Translations under genes and position numbers: made by a program | The notes under the pieces: model-generated | Databases searched by the model: none | What the model was told of the DNA's origin: nothing | The model's input: the letters and a program-made list of their open reading frames with translations, nothing else | Shown: positions 16,262-47,978 of the stretch, piece by piece | Layout: each line of letters starts with the position of its first letter | Position numbering within the stretch: the first letter of the stretch is position 1 | From: Actinomycetes bacterium | GTDB lineage: Bacteria; Actinomycetota; Thermoleophilia; UBA2241 | Assembly: GCA_029547745.1 (NCBI GenBank) | Contig: JAKPOQ010000033.1 | Span: forward strand, 1-59,128 | Length of the DNA: 59,128 nt | Direction of reading: 5' to 3'

Positions 16262-16292
16262 CTTGCGTTCCCCTCACTGTCGTCGCCGCACG

Positions 16293-16317
16293 AAAAAAGC
16301 CGGGCGCGACGCCCGGC
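16293..16317 (-). terminator. intrinsic terminator in the rny leader, possible attenuator
   Basis: On the minus strand GCCGGGCG pairs with CGCCCGGC around a 3-base loop, followed by six Ts (16298-16293). The T-run ends 31 bases before the rny ATG. There is no room for a promoter between it and rny, so rny transcripts must read through it. It could instead end a transcript from recX (stop at 16750) or a small RNA from the intervening gap. Confidence 0.75.
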
Positions 16318-16749
16318 CTGTGCTGCGCTCGCACCGGCACGCGATACCGAGAACGAAGATGTCACGTCGCAGGGGTCACGACACGCACAGTTCAGTACAG
16401 GTCAAAACCTCCCAAACCTCTCTGCCTGACCCCTGTCGTCGTTGTCAATCGCTTCGACGCTGACGCGCCGTCGTCGTATCGCATGTGCCCGCGCGAGGAA
16501 CGTCACTACAGTCCACGCGTCTCATTCGCGCACGACGATACTACGCAAGCGGCGGACGAGCGTCAATTCGGCGCACTACGTCCACCCCTCTTGGCGCGCC
16601 GCGCCTTCGCGCACGGCGACGCAGGCTCGGACTGCCGGAGCACGTCGACGACCCTGCGCCCCCGGCGCTGCAGTCCCGCGGACTCCGACGTACCGCGCCC
16701 CTCGGCGCTGCAGTCCCGCGGACTCCGACGCACCGCGCCCCCCGGCGCT
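16318..16749 (-). other. long gap between recX and rny
   Basis: No protein gene is evident. On the minus strand a perfect TTGACA is at 16443-16448 and TTGACC near 16400, but no good -10 lies at the right spacing. The part next to recX is occupied by a 40-bp tandem repeat. The gap could encode the rny leader or a small RNA ending at the terminator at 16293-16317. Confidence 0.4.
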
Positions 16750-39409: not shown

Positions 39410-39714
39410 AGCGCCCTCACAGGTTCGGCAGTCTTGAGCAACGTGCGTGAGACCTCGAAGTCGCGCCCGTGCAGATAGCGTTCGATCTCGTCCACGCGCT
39501 CGCGAGCTTGGGCGAGGGACGACGCCGCGGTCACGATGAGCACTTCGGCGCGCTGCCAGGATCCGAGCCCGCCGGTCACGGAGAACGCCGCCCGAAAACG
39601 GCGCTGCACGACGTCGCGCAGCGAGTCCAGCGGGGCGCGCTTCTCCTTCAGCGACCGGTTCCCAGGAAAGTGCAGCTCCGCGAAGAGGACGCCGATGCAG
39701 GCGTCAGACCTCAC
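39385..39714 (-). CDS. ylxP: YlxP/DUF503 family protein
   Basis: A 109-residue protein of the DUF503 (YlxP) family, with CIGVLFAELHFPGNRSLKEKR at the N-terminus and ending VRALWDIDSAG. Its position between infB and rbfA is the family's usual place. A role in ribosome assembly or RNA binding is inferred from context only. GTG at 39714 overlaps the infB end by 11 bases. Confidence 0.88.
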   Translation of the reverse strand: MRSDACIGVLFAELHFPGNRSLKEKRAPLDSLRDVVQRRFRAAFSVTGGLGSWQRAEVLIVTAASSLAQARERVDEIERYLHGRDFEVSRTLLKTAEPVRALWDIDSAG

Positions 39715-41782
39715 GGGCGACTTCTCGGGTCTCGTAGGCCTCCAACACATCGCCTTCCTTGATGTCGTTGAAGCCGTCGAGCAGGATGCCGCACTCGAAC
39801 CCCTCCTGGGCCTCGCGCACGTCGTCCGAGAACCGTCGCAGAGAGGCGATCTTGCCGTCGTGGACGACCACGTCGTTGCGCAGGACGCGGACGTTGGCGT
39901 TGCGGGTCATCACGCCGCGCGTGACCATGCACCCCGCGATGGTGCCCAGCTTCGAGGCGCGAAAGAGCTGGCGCACCTCGGCCTGCCCGAGCACGACCTC
40001 CTCGTACTCCGGCTTGAGCATACCGACGAGCGCCGCCGTGATGTCCTCCGTCACTTTGTAGATGACGCGGTAGGTACGGACGTCGACGCCCTCGCTTTCG
40101 GCGAGCGCCTGAGCCGCCGGACTGGGCCGTACGTTGAAGCCGATGACGATCGCCGACGACGCCGCCGCCAGCATGACGTCCGACTCGTTGATGCCCCCGA
40201 CGCCGCCGTGGATGATGCGGACCTTGACCTCGGGATGCTGGATCTTGAGCAGGGCGTCGGTGAGCGCCTCGAGGCTGCCCTGCACGTCGGCCTTGACGAC
40301 CAGGTCGAGCTCGCGGACCTTGCCCTCGGCGATGCGCGCGAACACGTCGTCCAGCGTGAGGGAACGCTGACGGGCGAGCGTCTCGCTCTTGATGCGGTTG
40401 GCGCGCTTCTGGGCCAGCGAGCGCGCCGTGCGCTCGTCCTTGACGACGCGGCACAACTCACCGGCGGCGGGCAGGCTGTCGAAGCCGACGATCTCGACCG
40501 GCGTCGAGGGGCCCGCCGCCTTGAGCGGCTCGCCGCGGAAGTCGCGCATCGCGCGGACGCGGCCGCTGGCCTCGCCGGCGACGACCGCGTCGCCCACATG
40601 CAGGGTGCCGCGGCCGACGAGCATGGTGGCGACGACCCCGCGTCCGGGGTCGACGCGCGACTCGATGATGAACCCGCTCGCCGGGGCATCGGGGTTCGCT
40701 TTGAGGTCGGCCATCTCGGCGACCAGCAGCAGCATCTCGAGGAACTCCTCGATGCCGATACGCTTCTTGGCGCTGACCTCGACGAACACCGTGTCGCCGC
40801 CCCACTCCTCGGGGACGATCCCGTACTCGGTGAGTTGCTGCTTGATGCGCTCGACGTTCGCCTCGGGCTTGTCGATCTTGTTGACGACGATGACCATGGG
40901 GACGCCGGCCGCCTTGGCGTGGTCGATCGCCTCGACGGTCTGCGGCATGACGCCGTCGTCGGCGGCGACGACGATCGCGGCGATGTCGGTGACCTTCGCG
41001 CCGCGGGCGCGCATCGCCGTGAAGGCGGCGTGCCCTGGGGTGTCGATGAAGGTCACGAGCTTGCCCTTATGGCGGACCTGGTAGGCGCCGATGTGCTGCG
41101 TGATGCCGCCGGCCTCGCCGGCGGCGACCGCCGTGTCGCGGATCGCGTCGAGCAGGCTCGTCTTGCCGTGGTCGACGTGACCCATCACCGTGACGACCGC
41201 CGGCCGTGGCTCGAGGTCGGCCTCATCGTCGACAGCCTCGGTCTCGAGCTCGGCTTCTTCGTCTGCAGCGTGCGTGATCTCGACCTCGCGACCGAAGTCG
41301 CCGGCGAGGACCTCGATGGCGTCGTCGGTGAGGGTCTGCGTGATGGTCACCATCTCGCCGTAGCCCATCAGCGTCTTGATGATGGCGGAGGTGGGGATAC
41401 CGAGGAGCTGCGAGACGTCCTTGACCGTGGCCCCCGACGGAACCTTGACGACGCCGGTCGGCACGACGGGCGGCGCAGCCTGCTCGTCGCTGCGGTCGCT
41501 GCGGTTGCGGCGTCCGCGACGCTGCCGTCCGCCGGTCTGCGGACCGCCGCGGCGCGAGGCCCCGGCGTCGATGATCACACGACGACGACGACCGCCCGGG
41601 TTCGGGCGGGGACGTCGGGGACCGGTGGAGCCCGCAGCATAGGCGCGCTCGATCGCCTCCTCGTCGACCGACACCTCGCCGTCGACGACCTCGATGCCGG
41701 CGCGCTTCAGGTGGGCGAGGACGTCGTCGACGCTCGTGCCGCGCTGATTAGCGATGTCGCTGACCTTGCGCCTCTTCGCCAT
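39704..41782 (-). CDS. infB: translation initiation factor IF-2
   Basis: A 692-residue IF-2, short for an actinobacterium because the N-terminal disordered region is small. It has an IF2_N motif (VSDIANQRGTSVDDVLAHLK), an Arg/Gly-rich linker and a second IF2_N segment. The G domain has GHVDHGKTSLLDAI, DTPGHAAF and NKIDKP. Domains II and IV complete it. ATG abuts the ylxR stop with no gap. Confidence 0.96.
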   Translation of the reverse strand: MAKRRKVSDIANQRGTSVDDVLAHLKRAGIEVVDGEVSVDEEAIERAYAAGSTGPRRPRPNPGGRRRRVIIDAGASRRGGPQTGGRQRRGRRNRSDRSDEQAAPPVVPTGVVKVPSGATVKDVSQLLGIPTSAIIKTLMGYGEMVTITQTLTDDAIEVLAGDFGREVEITHAADEEAELETEAVDDEADLEPRPAVVTVMGHVDHGKTSLLDAIRDTAVAAGEAGGITQHIGAYQVRHKGKLVTFIDTPGHAAFTAMRARGAKVTDIAAIVVAADDGVMPQTVEAIDHAKAAGVPMVIVVNKIDKPEANVERIKQQLTEYGIVPEEWGGDTVFVEVSAKKRIGIEEFLEMLLLVAEMADLKANPDAPASGFIIESRVDPGRGVVATMLVGRGTLHVGDAVVAGEASGRVRAMRDFRGEPLKAAGPSTPVEIVGFDSLPAAGELCRVVKDERTARSLAQKRANRIKSETLARQRSLTLDDVFARIAEGKVRELDLVVKADVQGSLEALTDALLKIQHPEVKVRIIHGGVGGINESDVMLAAASSAIVIGFNVRPSPAAQALAESEGVDVRTYRVIYKVTEDITAALVGMLKPEYEEVVLGQAEVRQLFRASKLGTIAGCMVTRGVMTRNANVRVLRNDVVVHDGKIASLRRFSDDVREAQEGFECGILLDGFNDIKEGDVLEAYETREVAREV

Positions 41783-42055
41783 TCACCTCACCGCCTTTCG
41801 TCCGTCGCAGACCGCGGCGAACGCGGCGACGAACTCCTCATCGACGGCCGCCGGACCGCGGAACGCGCGGCCGAAGGCGCGCCGTCTGCCGGCCGCCTCG
41901 AGACAAGCCGGGTCGGGGCACAGATAGGCGCCGCGACCCGATGCACCCGGCGTCGCCAGGCGAACGCGGCCGTCCTCGACGCGCAATCGTATCAACTCGC
42001 GCTGGGCGCGTTTGCGCCGGCAGCCGATGCAGCTCCGCTCCGGGCCGTCCACCAC
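41783..42055 (-). CDS. ylxR: YlxR-family RNA-binding protein
   Basis: A 90-residue DUF448/YlxR protein with the signature ERSCIGCRRKRAQREL and the ASGRGAYLCPDPACLEAA segment. It lies between nusA and infB as usual. In other bacteria YlxR affects RNase P activity and gene expression, so an RNA-related role is likely. The start is GTG at 42055, directly after the nusA stop; a second GTG follows immediately. Confidence 0.92.
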   Translation of the reverse strand: MVDGPERSCIGCRRKRAQRELIRLRVEDGRVRLATPGASGRGAYLCPDPACLEAAGRRRAFGRAFRGPAAVDEEFVAAFAAVCDGRKAVR

Positions 42056-43408
42056 TCACTCCGCCGCTTCGCCGGCCGCGCCGACGGGTTCGTCTTCTCC
42101 TTCGCCGCCCTGCGCCGGCCGCGATCTGGCCGCCTCGGCGGCCGCCTGGGCGGCCTTCTCCGCCTCGCTGGGCACGTAGTCGGCGTGGATGCTGCAGTAC
42201 TTCGACCCTGGCTCGGAGGCGTTCACGCAACGCTTGCCGTTGCGCGTGATCGCCATGCACTGTCCGGCGAGCTCGTCGTCGCCGAAGTCGAGCTCGGCTT
42301 CGGCGGCGGCCATCTGCTGCTGGCTCTTGATGTCGATGCGCCAGCCGGTGAGCTTGCTTGCGAGACGGGCGTTCTGCCCCTCCTTGCCGATGGCCAGGGA
42401 GAGTTGGTCGTCGGGGACGATGACCGTCGCCTCTTCCTTCTCGTCGTCGACGATGACCTCGCGCACGCGCGCCGGCGACAGCGCCTTGGCGACGAAACGC
42501 GCCGGGTCGTCGTGGTACGGGACGATGTCGATGCGCTCGCCGCGCAGCTCGCTGACGACCATGCGCACGCGCGAGCCGCGTGGCCCGACGCAGGCGCCGA
42601 CCGGGTCGACCCCGTCGGCGTGGGACACGACGGCGATCTTGCAGCGCCCGGGCATGGGTTTGCCGTCACGGCCGCGGGACCCCGTTTCGCGCGCGACGTA
42701 CTTGATCTCGACGAGGCCGTCGGCGATCTCCGGGACCTCGAGCTCGAACAGCTTGCGCACGAGCTGGTCGCTGCGTCGCGACAGGATGACCTGAGGCCCC
42801 TTGCTCGAGTCCTGCACCTTGACGATCACGGCCTTGATACGACTGCCGTGATCGTAGTGCTCAGTCTCGATCTGCTCGCTCTTGGGAAGCAGCGCCTCGA
42901 CGCGGCCGAGTTCGACCAGCGTGTAACGCGCGTCGCTCTGCTGCACGACGCCGGTGACGAGGTCGCCGACGCGGTCGACGTACTCTTCGAACATGAGGTC
43001 GCGCTCGGCCTCGCGGATGCGCTGCAGGATCACCTGCTTGGCGGTCTGGGCGGCGATGCGGCCGAAGTTCTCCGGGGTCACCTCGACGCGCTCGACCTCG
43101 CTCATGTCGACGCCCGACAGGTCGAGACGCCAGTTGTCGCGCGGCGCCTCCGCGCCCGAGAGCGTCCCTTCCGCAGGCTCGTCATAGACCTTCAGCGACT
43201 CGACGTCGATGTGGTCCGGGAAGATCAACTGGAAGACGCGCATCTCCCCGGTCTCGGTGTCGACCTCGACCTTGGCGTGCTCCACGGCATCTGGGGTCTT
43301 CTTGTACGCCGACAGCAGCGCGTCCTCGAGGGCCTCGACGAGCGCGTCGAAAGCGATGCCCTTCTCTTTCTCGATCTGGCGCAGAGCCTCGATGATCTCT
43401 CTACTCAC
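42056..43408 (-). CDS. nusA: transcription termination/antitermination protein NusA with zinc-finger tail
   Basis: A 450-residue NusA. The N-terminal RNA-polymerase-binding domain (SREIIEALRQIEKEKGI) leads to an S1 domain and two KH domains (HADGVDPVGACVGPRGSRV; LSLAIGKEGQNARLASKL). An extra C-terminal segment carries CMAITRNGKRC then SKYCSIH, a C-x9-C-x10-C-x2-H pattern suggesting a small zinc finger, followed by an Ala/Glu tail. GTG at 43408 has GGAGG 5 bases upstream and gives the standard N-terminus; ATG at 43420 is the alternative. It overlaps rimP by 8 bases. Confidence 0.94.
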   Translation of the reverse strand: MSREIIEALRQIEKEKGIAFDALVEALEDALLSAYKKTPDAVEHAKVEVDTETGEMRVFQLIFPDHIDVESLKVYDEPAEGTLSGAEAPRDNWRLDLSGVDMSEVERVEVTPENFGRIAAQTAKQVILQRIREAERDLMFEEYVDRVGDLVTGVVQQSDARYTLVELGRVEALLPKSEQIETEHYDHGSRIKAVIVKVQDSSKGPQVILSRRSDQLVRKLFELEVPEIADGLVEIKYVARETGSRGRDGKPMPGRCKIAVVSHADGVDPVGACVGPRGSRVRMVVSELRGERIDIVPYHDDPARFVAKALSPARVREVIVDDEKEEATVIVPDDQLSLAIGKEGQNARLASKLTGWRIDIKSQQQMAAAEAELDFGDDELAGQCMAITRNGKRCVNASEPGSKYCSIHADYVPSEAEKAAQAAAEAARSRPAQGGEGEDEPVGAAGEAAE

Positions 43409-43865
43409 GTCGGCCTCCATTCCTCGCGAAGTCGTAGACCACGTGCGCGGTCGCGATCTCGCGCAACGGCAGGCAGGCTTCTCCGCCGCCGGCGAGCGTG
43501 AGCGCGACGCTCTCGTCGCTCGCCGCCCTGACGACGCCGCGGAACGTGCTGCGTCCGTCCCGCGGCTCGCCCAGCCTGATCACGACGTCTTCGCCGAGCG
43601 CCGCGGCGAAGTGCGCCGCCGTGCGCAGGCGCCGGTCCAGACCGGGCGAGGACACCTCGAGCGCGTAGCGCTCGCGGATCTCGTCGAGGGCGCCGCTCAC
43701 GGCGGCGCAGAGCTCCAGATCGACCCCGCCCGGCCGGTCGATGTACAGCGTCAGCGTGCGGCCGGGCTGACCGACGTCGAGGTCCACGACCTCGACGTCG
43801 GGGAAGGCCGGCCGCAACGCGGCCTCGATCTCGGTCAGCAACTGTCCTTTACTTTCGCGCCTCAT
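43401..43865 (-). CDS. rimP: ribosome maturation factor RimP
   Basis: A 154-residue RimP with LTLYIDRPGGVDLELCAAVSGALDE and the signature YALEVSSPGLDRRL, then an SH3-like C-terminal domain. It is needed for 30S maturation and opens the rimP-to-ribF operon. ATG at 43865 is chosen because the conserved region begins soon after; the longer frame upstream would read through the terminator. Only 8 bases separate the terminator T-tract from the start codon. Confidence 0.92.
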   Translation of the reverse strand: MRRESKGQLLTEIEAALRPAFPDVEVVDLDVGQPGRTLTLYIDRPGGVDLELCAAVSGALDEIRERYALEVSSPGLDRRLRTAAHFAAALGEDVVIRLGEPRDGRSTFRGVVRAASDESVALTLAGGGEACLPLREIATAHVVYDFARNGGRRE

Positions 43866-43873
43866 ACCGTTCC

Positions 43874-43899
43874 AAAAGAAAAGCCGGTGTCGCACCGGC
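43874..43899 (-). terminator. intrinsic terminator in the rimP-nusA leader, probable attenuator
   Basis: On the minus strand GCCGGTG pairs with CACCGGC around a 3-base loop, followed by TTTTCTTTT. The T-tract ends 8 bases before the rimP ATG and lies downstream of the only good promoter (43945-43974). All operon transcripts must therefore pass it. Confidence 0.82.
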
Positions 43900-43944
43900 C
43901 TTCACGCGTCGAACCGCCTCCGGGTGTGGTTTTCTGACCGCCGG

Positions 43945-43974
43945 ATTATAGCACCAAGCCGCAGCGCCGCTCAA
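43945..43974 (-). promoter_or_regulatory. promoter of the rimP-nusA-infB operon
   Basis: A perfect TATAAT (43945-43950) lies 18 bases from TTGAGC (43969-43974) on the minus strand. The predicted leader is about 73 bases and consists mostly of the terminator hairpin. The -35 falls inside one copy of a 42-bp tandem repeat. Confidence 0.75.
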
Positions 43975-44053
43975 TACGTGGTCCCGCCCATCGCTCGGCC
44001 CGGCGCCGTCCCTCGACACGTGGTCCTGCCCGTCGCTCGGCCCGGCGCCCCTC
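43970..44053. repeat. 42-bp tandem repeat upstream of the nusA operon
   Basis: Copies at 43970-44011 and 44012-44053 share ACGTGGTCC, TCGCTCGGCCCGGCGCC and more, differing at several bases. A partial third copy (CTCAATACGTGG) is at about 44092. The first copy holds the operon's -35 element. Confidence 0.8.
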
Positions 44054-44156
44054 TCGATGCGCCGCCTCGCTCTTTCTGGGCGCGACGTCGCCCTCAATAC
44101 GTGGGCGCGTCCTGCCGATACGCTTCGACGTCGAGCGACGTACGGGAGAGGGCACG

Positions 44157-44441
44157 ATGGGAGAGTACACGACGTTCCGTTGCCGGAAGTGCGGCTACAG
44201 CGCCGAGCGCGTGCGCTGGGGCGTCGGCATGAACGACCCTCGGCAACGTTTCATGCCCGCCTATTGCGTCGAATGCAGCACGATCGTCGAGGTCGACCTC
44301 ACGGGCGCCGACCTCATGGTCGACGAGTTCACCTGCCTGAAGTGCGGCAGCGAGCTCTTCTTCCTCGAGAAGGCGGCGTCGTACACCTGCCCGAAGTGCA
44401 AGGCGCACGACATGCTGCTCACCCAGGGCGAGTACTGGTGA
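44157..44441 (+). CDS. small double zinc-ribbon protein
   Basis: A 94-residue protein with four CxxC pairs: CRKC (residues 9-12), CVEC, CLKC and CPKC. They should form two zinc ribbons separated by a hydrophobic strand. I do not recognise a named family or function; such proteins are often RNA, DNA or chaperone adaptors. ATG follows GGGAGAGGGCACG. It is a lone plus-strand gene between divergent and convergent minus-strand genes. Confidence 0.8.
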   Translation: MGEYTTFRCRKCGYSAERVRWGVGMNDPRQRFMPAYCVECSTIVEVDLTGADLMVDEFTCLKCGSELFFLEKAASYTCPKCKAHDMLLTQGEYW

Positions 44442-44479
44442 CGGGGGCGCGGGCCGACGTCGCGTCGCCCGCGCCCCCG

Positions 44480-44527
44480 CGACTGCTCCTGGATGACGAG
44501 CGCCCCCCGACTACTCCTGGATGACGA
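44480..44527. repeat. duplicated 3' end of the L,D-transpeptidase gene
   Basis: Twenty bases at 44508-44527, covering the last codons and stop of the transpeptidase gene, recur at 44480-44499 with one mismatch. The copy lies just downstream of the gene on the minus strand. Confidence 0.75.
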
Positions 44528-45302
44528 CCGGGCTCCCGGCCGGGACGACCTTGTCCACGGCGAGGATGTCCTTGTTCCGCATCCGCACGCATCCGTGGCT
44601 GATGGCCTTGCCGATCAGCCAGGGCTCGTTCGTGCCGTGGATCGCCACCGGCCCGCCCTGCACCCACCCCGGAAGCTTGGGCTGGAAGGCGCTGATGCCG
44701 ATGGCGAGGACCCCGTACGGCCCGCCGGGCTGCGGCGGCTTGAGCTTCTGATTGACGAAGAAGGACCCGGTAGGGGTCTCGAGGCCGGGCCGCCCGACGG
44801 CGACCGGATACTCACCCCTGAGCTCTCCTCGCCGGTACGTGCGCAAGGTGCGCTCCGAGAGGTCGATGACGATCTTCGCCGAGGTCGTGTAGAAGGCCAG
44901 CGAGCCCTCCTTCACCCAGCCCTTGCTGCCGTTCGGTCGCATGGCGACGTAGACGAGATACCACGTGGCATCGCCGACCCGCTTGACCCTGTCGACGAGC
45001 ACGAGCGTGGGGTAGCCGTTCTGGTTGCGCACCCCGAGACGCGTCTTCACGGCGGCGGCCGACGACGGACGCCTGCGGACGATGACGGGGCCGGTCGCCT
45101 TGCCGACGACCCAGCGCTCGTACTGGGGCGCCGTCCCGACCCCTGGCGCGGCCGATGACACGGGGGGCGCCTCGGCGAGGTCTTGCGCCGCCCCTCCGCC
45201 TGCCGCCCGGGCGCGCACGACCGCGTAGCCGCCCAGCGCCAGCACGGCGAGCAGGACGACGACGCCCAGGATCACGAGGGACTTGCGTAGAGAAGCCGGC
45301 AT
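44511..45302 (-). CDS. L,D-transpeptidase (YkuD domain)
   Basis: A 263-residue membrane-anchored wall enzyme forming 3-3 cross-links or attaching proteins to peptidoglycan. One N-terminal transmembrane helix (LVILGVVVLLAVLALGGYAV) is followed by an Ala-rich linker, an SH3-like region and a YkuD domain with the substrate loop IHGTNEPWLIG and catalytic SHGCVRMRN. ATG at 45302 has no Shine-Dalgarno site. Confidence 0.92.
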   Translation of the reverse strand: MPASLRKSLVILGVVVLLAVLALGGYAVVRARAAGGGAAQDLAEAPPVSSAAPGVGTAPQYERWVVGKATGPVIVRRRPSSAAAVKTRLGVRNQNGYPTLVLVDRVKRVGDATWYLVYVAMRPNGSKGWVKEGSLAFYTTSAKIVIDLSERTLRTYRRGELRGEYPVAVGRPGLETPTGSFFVNQKLKPPQPGGPYGVLAIGISAFQPKLPGWVQGGPVAIHGTNEPWLIGKAISHGCVRMRNKDILAVDKVVPAGSPVVIQE

Positions 45303-45313
45303 GCTCGCCGGCG

Positions 45314-45342
45314 AGGATAGCCCAGCGTCCCGCGCGTGTACA
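45314..45342 (-). promoter_or_regulatory. promoter close to the transpeptidase start
   Basis: TGTACA (45337-45342) and TATCCT (45314-45319) on the minus strand are 17 bases apart. The predicted transcript would begin only about 5 bases before the ATG. Together with the missing Shine-Dalgarno site, this fits a nearly leaderless mRNA. Confidence 0.4.
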
Positions 45343-45454
45343 GTAGCGGTCTGTTGCGCGGCGCGGGCGGCGCGGCCGCCCGGCCCGCGCCGCGCCGCCC
45401 ATACCGTAAAATACGGCCAGCCCGGGGAGACCGGGGGACAGAAAGGAGACGCGC

Positions 45455-46015
45455 GTGGACGTGGTCATCGTCATCATCGTGGTCCTGATCGTGCTGGGGG
45501 TCGTCTTCGCCGTCCTCTACAACCGGCTCGTGGGGCGCCGGAACCGCGTCGACAACGCCTGGAGCCAGATCGACGTCCAGCTCAAGCGCCGGTACGACCT
45601 CATCCCTAACCTCGTCGAGGCTGTGAAGGACTACATGGCCTATGAGCAGGAGACGCTCGCCAAGGTCACCGCGGCGCGGGCGGCGGCGATCGACGCCGGC
45701 GCCGCCGGGCCGAGGGCGCAGGCGCAGGCCGAGAACGCGCTCTCCGGCGCCCTGAAGTCGCTGTTCGCCGTGGCCGAGAACTACCCCGACCTCAAGGCCA
45801 ACCAGAACGTCATGAGCCTGCAGGAAGAACTTACGGCGACCGAGAACAAGATCGCCTTCGCGCGGCAGTTCTACAACGACAGCGTGCTCACCTACAACAA
45901 CACCATCCAGATGTTCCCGACCAACGTCATCGCCGGCATGTTCAACTTCACGACGCGTCAGTTCTTCGACGCGCCGGAAGAAGAGACGGCCGCGCCCAGG
46001 GTCGACCTGCGCTGA
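45455..46015 (+). CDS. lemA: LemA family protein
   Basis: A 186-residue protein with an N-terminal transmembrane helix (VVIVIIVVLIVLGVVFAVLY) and the LemA helical bundle (NAWSQIDVQLKRRYDLIPNL, then NENVMSL-like and ENKIAFARQFYND). LemA-HtpX pairs are common and HtpX follows here after 41 bases, but the function of LemA is not settled. GTG at 45455 has AGGAG 7 bases upstream. Confidence 0.92.
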   Translation: MDVVIVIIVVLIVLGVVFAVLYNRLVGRRNRVDNAWSQIDVQLKRRYDLIPNLVEAVKDYMAYEQETLAKVTAARAAAIDAGAAGPRAQAQAENALSGALKSLFAVAENYPDLKANQNVMSLQEELTATENKIAFARQFYNDSVLTYNNTIQMFPTNVIAGMFNFTTRQFFDAPEEETAAPRVDLR

Positions 46016-46056
46016 AGCCTGGGCGCGGCCGGCGGCCGCCGCGCCGGTGACATGGG

Positions 46057-47049
46057 ATGTACGAACAGATCAACAGGAATCGCCGCGCCTCCTGGCTGTT
46101 GATGGTCGTCGTCGTCGCGATCCTCGCGGCGCTCGGCTACGTGATCGGGGCGGTCTCCACGGGAACCAGCGCGGGCGGTCTCAGCTTCCTCGGACTCTTC
46201 GGGGTCGTCGCCGTCGCCTGGAGCCTCGTCGCCTACTTCACCGGCGACAAGATGGCCCTGGCCGTGAGCGGGGCGCGGCGGATCTCGCACGAACAGGAGC
46301 CGCGCCTCTGGAACGTCGTCGAAGAGATGACGATCGCGGCCGGGCTCGGACAGCCGCCGCAGGTCTATGTCATCGAGGACCCGGCGCCCAACGCCTTCGC
46401 GACGGGACGCGATCCCGCGCACAGCGCCATCGCCGTCACGCGCGGGCTGCTCGACAAGCTGGACCGCAACGAGCTCCAGGGCGTGGTCGCACACGAGATG
46501 GCGCACGTGCGCAACTACGACATCCGCTTCGCCACTCTCGTCGGCGTCCTCGTCGGGCTGATCGCCTTGGTCGCCGACCTCTTCCTGCGTGCCCGCTGGT
46601 TCGGCTTCGGCGGCCGGCGCGGCGAGGGCGGGGGCTCGGCCGGCGTCGTCCTCGTGCTCGTCGGCCTGGTGTTCGCGATCGTCGCGCCCCTCGCCGCGCG
46701 CGCCGTCCAGTTCATGATCTCGCGCCGCCGTGAGCTGCTCGCCGACGGGACCGCCGTCGAGCTCACGCGCGACCCGTTGGGCCTGGCCGGCGCCCTGCAG
46801 AAGATCGCCGCCGACCCCGCCGGCTTGCGCATGGCCAACCGCGCCACGGCGCACCTCTACATTGCGAACCCTCTGCGCAAGGTCAAGAAGTCGGCGGGAC
46901 TCTTCGACACGCATCCGCCGATCGAGCTGCGCATCGAACTCCTGCTGGCGATGGCCCGGGGACAGGCGCCGGCCACCGCCGCGCGGGATCGGCGTCAGAC
47001 GGCGTCCGACGGCGACGCGTCGCTCGCGCCGCCGAGCGCCTCTCCATAG
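46057..47049 (+). CDS. htpX: HtpX-family membrane zinc metalloprotease
   Basis: A 330-residue M48 peptidase with two N-terminal transmembrane helices, the zinc motif HEMAHVRNYD, two more helices and a downstream glutamate in ELLADGTAVELT. It degrades damaged membrane proteins. The last 20 residues are polar and overlap the end of the convergent TPR gene by 55 bases. ATG at 46057; it follows lemA. Confidence 0.93.
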   Translation: MYEQINRNRRASWLLMVVVVAILAALGYVIGAVSTGTSAGGLSFLGLFGVVAVAWSLVAYFTGDKMALAVSGARRISHEQEPRLWNVVEEMTIAAGLGQPPQVYVIEDPAPNAFATGRDPAHSAIAVTRGLLDKLDRNELQGVVAHEMAHVRNYDIRFATLVGVLVGLIALVADLFLRARWFGFGGRRGEGGGSAGVVLVLVGLVFAIVAPLAARAVQFMISRRRELLADGTAVELTRDPLGLAGALQKIAADPAGLRMANRATAHLYIANPLRKVKKSAGLFDTHPPIELRIELLLAMARGQAPATAARDRRQTASDGDASLAPPSASP

Positions 47050-47396
47050 AGGCGCCGACGCGGCGCGAGAGCGGCCGCAAGCCTGAACCGGCCGCGACCC
47101 TCCGCCGCCCTGCCCATCTTCACGAGGCAGCGCCCGAGCGCGTACTGCGCGTAATCGTTGTCCGGGACGGCGGCGACGATGGCCTCGAACTGGGCTGCCG
47201 CACGCGACGTCTCCCCGAGCGCGAACAGGGCGCGTCCCAGCGCTTCGCGGATGGACATGCGGTCCGGTTCGAGGGCGAGGGCGCGCTCGAGGAGCTGCGC
47301 CGCCTGCCCGGGATGCCGCGCGTCGAGAAAGGCCATGCCCCGGCGGAACAGGGCGTAGGCCTCGCTGTGCTCGTCGAAACCGGGCTCGCGGCGCAT
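46995..47396 (-). CDS. tetratricopeptide-repeat protein
   Basis: A 133-residue protein with about three TPR units (FRRGMAFLDARHPGQAAQLLERALALEPD; LGRALFALGETSRAAAQFEAIVAAVPD; ALGRCLVKMGRAAEGRGRFRLAAALAP). It is probably a protein-interaction adaptor; no specific role can be given. ATG at 47396 follows AGGTGA; GTG at 47405 is an alternative. The last 55 bases overlap the htpX end on the other strand. Confidence 0.78.
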   Translation of the reverse strand: MRREPGFDEHSEAYALFRRGMAFLDARHPGQAAQLLERALALEPDRMSIREALGRALFALGETSRAAAQFEAIVAAVPDNDYAQYALGRCLVKMGRAAEGRGRFRLAAALAPRRRLYGEALGGASDASPSDAV

Positions 47397-47420
47397 CGAC
47401 GTCACCTCTCCCCCACCGTC

Positions 47421-47978
47421 TCAGAGCCCGAGGTCGGGCGCCACCGTCTGCATGGCGGCGAGACCGAGCGCCAGCACCTCGTCAAGGTCCAGGCCGAGCT
47501 CGCTGCAGCGCGCGATGGCGGCGCGGTCGACGCCGCGCGCGAACGCGCCCTCGCGGTAGCGCTTGCGCAACGACTTGAGCTGCACGCCGGCGAGCTGCTT
47601 GTCGGGGCGGATGAGGGCCGCCGCCGTGACGAGCCCGCTGAGCTGATCGGCGACGACGAGGGCGACGTCCAGGCGACTCTCGGCGGCGACGCCGGTGGCG
47701 GGATTGTGCGCGGCGACGGCATGAGCGACATCGGCGGGCGCCCCGGCGGCAGTGAGGGCGGCGGCGGCTTCCGCGCCGTGGCGCGTGAAGTCGTCACGGG
47801 TCTCGTCGGCATCGAGGTCGTGGGCGAGCCCGGCGAGACCCCACCGTTCGGGGTCTTCGCCGAAGCGCTCGGCGAGGGCGCGCATGATCGCCTCGCAGGC
47901 CAGCATGTGGCGCCGCAGGTTCTGGTCGGCGACGCGCGCCTCGATCAGCGACAGCACGTCGGCGCGCGTGGCGCTCAT
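47421..47978 (-). CDS. HD-domain hydrolase
   Basis: A 185-residue HD-superfamily protein. The HD metal motif LAGLAHDLDADET lies at about residues 49-61, with a likely first His at 24 and further ligands in AHNP and LVVADQLSG. It is probably a phosphohydrolase of nucleotides or a related compound; the substrate is unknown. It lies between the TPR gene and coaBC with short gaps. Confidence 0.82.
   Translation of the reverse strand: MSATRADVLSLIEARVADQNLRRHMLACEAIMRALAERFGEDPERWGLAGLAHDLDADETRDDFTRHGAEAAAALTAAGAPADVAHAVAAHNPATGVAAESRLDVALVVADQLSGLVTAAALIRPDKQLAGVQLKSLRKRYREGAFARGVDRAAIARCSELGLDLDEVLALGLAAMQTVAPDLGL

Follow-up and report, generated by a model that had tools for sequence, protein, structure and literature searches.

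The window analyzed here, the whole stretch of 59,128 nucleotides, comes from an uncultured Thermoleophilia bacterium whose genome of 2.27 Mb is spread over 203 contigs and is 95.8% complete. The closest named relative by NusA is Thermoleophilia bacterium UBA2241, with 88% identity in the best segment. On the minus strand a predicted leader is followed by genes in the order rimP-nusA-ylxR-infB, whose products were assigned to RimP, NusA, YlxR, and IF-2 by Pfam matches (Table 1). The C-terminal part of the NusA protein contains a short cysteine/histidine motif, CMAITRNGKRCVNASEPGSKYCSIH, for which the NCBIfam HGGxSTG match was sub-threshold.

Table 1. Features of the rimP leader and of the operon downstream, in window coordinates.
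Feature	Position	Strand	Basis and remarks
-35 element TTGAGC	43969..43974	-	sequence and promoter scan
Extended -10 element TGCTATAAT	43945..43953	-	sequence and promoter scan; 18-bp spacer to the -35 element
Predicted leader, 73 nt	43866..43938	-	putative start G43938, about 7 nt past the -10 element
Purine-rich motif CCGGAGGCG	43915..43923	-	kept in most of the window's family (alignment)
Stem-loop GCCGGTG-CGA-CACCGGC, 7-bp stem	43883..43899	-	core CGG/CCG instead of GGG/CCC
Interrupted T-tract TTTTCTTTT	43874..43882	-	sequence; ends 8 nt short of the rimP ATG
rimP (RimP_N + DUF150_C)	43401..43865	-	domain matches; ATG at 43865
nusA	42056..43420	-	TIGR01953
10-residue insertion RGRDGKPMPG, nusA codons 249-258	42647..42676	-	directly precedes the Pfam KH_5 match (residues 259-323)
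ylxR	41783..42055	-	Pfam
infB (IF-2)	39704..41782	-	Pfam

A scan of positions 43000-47500 returned TTGAGC-18-TGCTATAAT as the sole promoter-like site, where 0.2 were expected from shuffled sequences, and this bears out the TATAAT-type promoter proposed in the first-pass annotation of this DNA. In the relatives the -10 element mostly reads TGnTATAcT/TATAAT and lies 23-50 nt 5' of the hairpin, with TG ahead of it in 50 of 55 cases, TATACT in 20, and TATAAT in 15; these statistics are biased towards the motif since the script took the best-scoring hairpin and the best-scoring -10 in each region. With the start that we infer at G43938 the leader has the length of about 73 bases given previously. 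Its description as mostly terminator was overstated, because the hairpin and T-tract account for only 26 of the 73 nt and the 39 nt 5' of the hairpin hold a conserved CCGGAGGCG-like motif. Inspection of the family alignment by eye found no consistent start codon 3' of this motif. A leader peptide was considered, as a GTG frame overlaps the hairpin, but was rejected since a start codon after the purine motif is not conserved in the family. Upstream of the promoter, at about 43965-44110, imperfect repeats composed of GTGGTCCCGCCCATCGCTCGGCCCGGCGCC and a near copy were seen by eye; these were not reported by Tandem Repeats Finder.

The 7-bp stem and T-tract ending 8 bases 5' of rimP are present in the sequence as originally read. 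When the 291-nt intergenic region was shuffled 2000 times with dinucleotides preserved, just one shuffle had an equally good hairpin with T-tract, and the same rule selected only two sites in the window, namely the rimP leader and 16317-16299. The hairpin was absent from the list of the terminator scan tool, an omission probably due to the stem running on into the T-tract, and the leader had no match to any described RNA family in Rfam at gathering score; the whole 93-nt leader region folds no better than shuffled sequences (z -0.15). A role as terminator of an upstream gene was ruled out because the next plausible gene, a zinc-ribbon-like ORF at 44157-44441, runs in the opposite orientation. 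The stem had been called weak, a claim which fails: at -13.6 kcal/mol it ranks 26th of 55 and is average for its kind (median -13.4), when compared with its relatives and not with ordinary terminators. The interruption of the T-tract, on the other hand, is real and is shared by 51 of the 55 relatives, as in NusA-sensitive terminators.

The hairpin at 16317-16299 (minus strand), the window's one further strict intrinsic terminator, is positioned about 40 nt 5' of rny (RNase Y, 16261-14729). Inspection by eye shows it preserved ahead of rny in all 13 members of the window's family in view, in four out of four genomes of family f6, and in five out of six of f4, and was not seen in the single f8 genome or in the four f3 genomes inspected. 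Its arms have changed yet remain paired (GCCGGGC..GCCCGGC to GCCGAGC..GCTCGGC), and a GTATC -10-like string is found upstream of it in most of the window's family. This element may be a second attenuator, or else the end of an upstream operon on the recX side.

The conservation of the rimP leader was addressed in 60 genomes, of which 56 yielded RimP, the window's own included. A scripted search upstream of rimP recovered a hairpin and T-tract from 55 of the 56, the exception being L052. The 55 hairpin cores align well: across the 10-bp helix 95.9% of the pair cells are standard, and in seven of the ten pairs both sides have changed. Covariation scored 0.411, as against 0.246 in shuffles (none of 500 as high) and 0.066-0.147 with the partner slid, relatedness being kept in the slid versions and lost in the shuffles. 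Four T columns are conserved at 90% or more, and the distance from the hairpin to rimP differs widely between relatives. Read from this alignment, the leader element is ancestral, with its hairpin retained through matching changes in both arms. Such conservation and covariation, together with a comparable family already published, give good support to the attenuator-type leader originally proposed; the stop hairpin is very probably a real brake of the published type, with an unusual altered core.

That published family is the rimP-leader, an attenuator ahead of rimP-nusA-infB; its proposed regulator is NusA, with RimP also named as a possible one (Naville & Gautheret, 2010, PMC2965389). In the section of that paper devoted to it, the element is described as a terminator with a GGGc(...)gCCC core and a T-stretch, its general form being without visible antiterminator; it lies 4-130 nt from the gene, within a leader of 180 nt in B. 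subtilis, and the conserved core is taken as suggesting direct recognition. The leader in the window agrees with this description in that it precedes rimP as first gene of the same operon, is composed of a hairpin and then a T-stretch with no large conserved domain, has its terminator 8 nt from the gene and thus inside the published range, and belongs to a family in which an antiterminator is likewise not visible. It differs in that the literal GGGc(...)gCCC is absent, since the arms GCCGGTG/CACCGGC have a CGG/CCG core. As its homology to the motif-bearing leaders rests on position and alignment, the window's leader is best regarded as a derived variant of the rimP-leader and not as a literal member. 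The idea of an attenuator at this locus is therefore not new, given that the leader belongs with published ones; the relevant section of the 2010 paper mentions neither Thermoleophilia nor an insertion in NusA.

The first-pass annotation had drawn its analogy from Bacillus. The precedent is genuine, as the NusA passage of a review states that B. subtilis NusA is autoregulated through NusA-stimulated termination in its own leader and that NusA acts in particular where hairpins are weak and U-tracts interrupted (PMC12288461); Bacillus alone was too narrow a frame, however, as the leader type is described as broadly distributed (PMC2965389). The two leaders have in common an intrinsic terminator before an operon encoding NusA and an interrupted U-tract. 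They are unlike in length, about 73 nt here and 180 nt there, and in the hairpin, which in the window is not weak but a GC-rich stem of average strength among its relatives.

A more elaborate arrangement is the tandem terminator/antiterminator of the gammaproteobacterial rimP-leader, which is described as including the general rimP-leader hairpin (PMC2965389). Its second terminator and its antiterminator are absent in the window's family, and the sister families f7 and f3 of the class show a different, single overlapping stem. Folds of f7 leaders contain GCUUUCG-hairpin-CGAAAG or a close version in nine of 11 (L016, L025, L034, L035, L048, L244, L245, L248, and L249, by eye), enclosing a variable hairpin; L034 is counted from a longer sequence, the 5' part lying outside its folded segment. 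In f3 the pairing is CAUUUC..GAAAUG in all seven leaders (L021, L023, L029, L036, L041, L042, and L045, by eye), with one G-U pair in a single case and a mean z of 1.60. These 5' segments of f7 and f3, which are absent from the window's family, are candidate antiterminators on the basis of the predicted folds.

The second and third pairs of the terminator core, GG/CC, are invariant in all 55 leaders; at the first pair, 45 leaders have G-C and 10 have C-G. The GGG/CCC form was found in all 40 leaders outside the window's family and in five of the 15 within it, and the genomes with the flipped CGG/CCG form comprise three of the window's genus (g1) and seven of a sister genus (g6). This flip of the otherwise invariant first G-C pair to C-G in g1 and one sister genus is what is new here; our search of the open-licence literature found neither this leader in Thermoleophilia nor a flipped core. 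The flipped form was also sought in 396 genomes of the phylum with a pattern so strict that it misses the leader of the window itself, and 70 genomes gave some match. Only two of the 38 loci examined among these 70 genomes (30 returned, plus eight further stretches) were located before rimP; these two belong to genera g61 and g74 of family f18. As f18 also holds the genera g47 and g254 with an unflipped core, the flip probably had two or more separate origins, as far as can be read from the sequences.

The specificity of the element was analyzed with two models. The first, R1, was built from the 55 leaders and so had the window's site among its training sequences; in the window's own genome it gave one match below E 0.1, at the rimP-leader site (E 2.4e-4), followed by 16282-16328 at E 0.8. 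Across 119 genomes of the phylum, R1 had a match at E 0.1 in 61 and none in 58. Of 30 loci returned, nine of them from training-set genomes, 27 were directly before rimP and/or nusA; outside the class this held for 18 of 21, the other three being L147, at the end of a contig, and L150 and L166, located elsewhere. The second model, R2, is the fairer test, having been built from the other families only with the window's family left out. It scored the window's leader at 18.0 bits (E 0.019) and the rny hairpin higher, at 20.2 bits, and its scan of the window's own genome gave no match. In a set of 80 named loci R2 recovered four unflipped members of the window's family at E 5e-7 to 3e-6 and five of eight flipped members at E 0.0065-0.01, and we infer that the flip accounts for much of the loss of score. 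Among Bacillota loci, R2 matched five of 62 at E 0.05, with two of the matches falling on the opposite strand.

NusA itself differs in the window's clade. An insertion of the form RGRDGKxxPG, just ahead of the KH_5 match, is common to the nine flipped-core genomes of the window's family that have the NusA region in view, and an alignment-based check found it absent in five unflipped members of the family. It is likewise absent in five f18 genomes, flipped or not, and in three NusA chains of solved structure compared by alignment. Of the 155 locus rows covering the insertion site 18 have it and 137 do not, the 18 rows being the nine genomes counted twice each, and other genomes also being counted more than once. 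Our reading of the insertion is that it is a beta-hairpin loop of the first KH domain. Because other flipped genomes, those of f18, lack the insertion, a link between it and the core flip can be put forward only as a hypothesis; there is one co-occurrence on one branch, which proves nothing on cause. That one Thermoleophilia clade has co-evolved a flipped core with a 10-residue basic NusA loop, such that NusA reads its own terminator core by sequence, is accordingly an improbable reading, the flipped leaders of f18 being paired with an insertion-less NusA. If it were true, NusA with and without the insertion and the flipped and unflipped cores would make up a ready-made specificity swap.

The interpretation that we favor, and to which we give reasonable though by no means full credence, is an attenuator of the rimP-leader type in which termination at about 65 nt is raised by NusA as a negative feedback. 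RNA polymerase would start near 43938 and reach the terminator after about 65 nt, where in vivo part of the transcripts would end and the remainder would read into rimP-nusA-ylxR-infB. NusA would most likely raise termination at a hairpin with an interrupted U-tract of this type, and high NusA would therefore lower expression of its own operon. Attenuation as such is likely on the strength of the conserved hairpin and T-tract, and NusA autoregulation in this bacterium is plausible by analogy with B. subtilis. The window's family shows no antiterminator, which favors regulation by a protein that affects the hairpin or pausing over an RNA switch.

The absence of an antiterminator or sensor domain in the window's family, and a short leader of which mainly the terminator is conserved, would equally suit a constitutive partial terminator, one that holds transcription into the operon at a constant low level without answering to any particular signal. 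We consider this unlikely, given that the GG/CC pairs are invariant in 55 of 55 leaders, beyond what pairing needs, which suggests recognition, and that regulation has its precedent in the B. subtilis leader as reviewed (PMC12288461). Recognition could also be by a factor other than NusA, such as RimP, NusG, or ribosomes acting at the same terminator, and RimP is among the possible regulators named in the 2010 paper (PMC2965389); this too has a small chance, slightly below that of a constitutive terminator, as the leader reported to be autoregulatory belongs to NusA (PMC12288461) and inspection of the family alignment by eye revealed no conserved start codon for a leader peptide.

Riboswitch-like control through an alternative antiterminator fold would find its best case in f7 and f3, where a 5' segment is complementary to the base of the terminator 5' arm in nine of 11 and seven of seven leaders, respectively; the statistic for arm pairing in f7 is itself modest (mean z 0.39). 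For the window's family, pairing of the leader with the 5' arm is no better than in shuffled leaders, being weaker than shuffled over the 15 members (mean z +0.77) and unremarkable in a second test of the same 15 (mean z 0.19), and such control is very unlikely. Least probable of all is a post-transcriptional function of the hairpin on the mRNA, as 5' stability element or shield of the ribosome site instead of terminator: its hairpin and T-tract do end only 8 nt from the start codon, but a stability hairpin would not need four T columns conserved at 90% or more, and the distance to rimP varies widely.

For NusA-dependent attenuation, the flip of one core pair with pairing kept, which has apparently occurred twice, separates what is read by sequence from what is needed for pairing, and the flipped lineage supplies leader templates and the NusA proteins that go with them, with which recognition can be tested directly. 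Few terminators are predicted in the high-GC phylum Actinomycetota, and the element is now documented across one of its classes.
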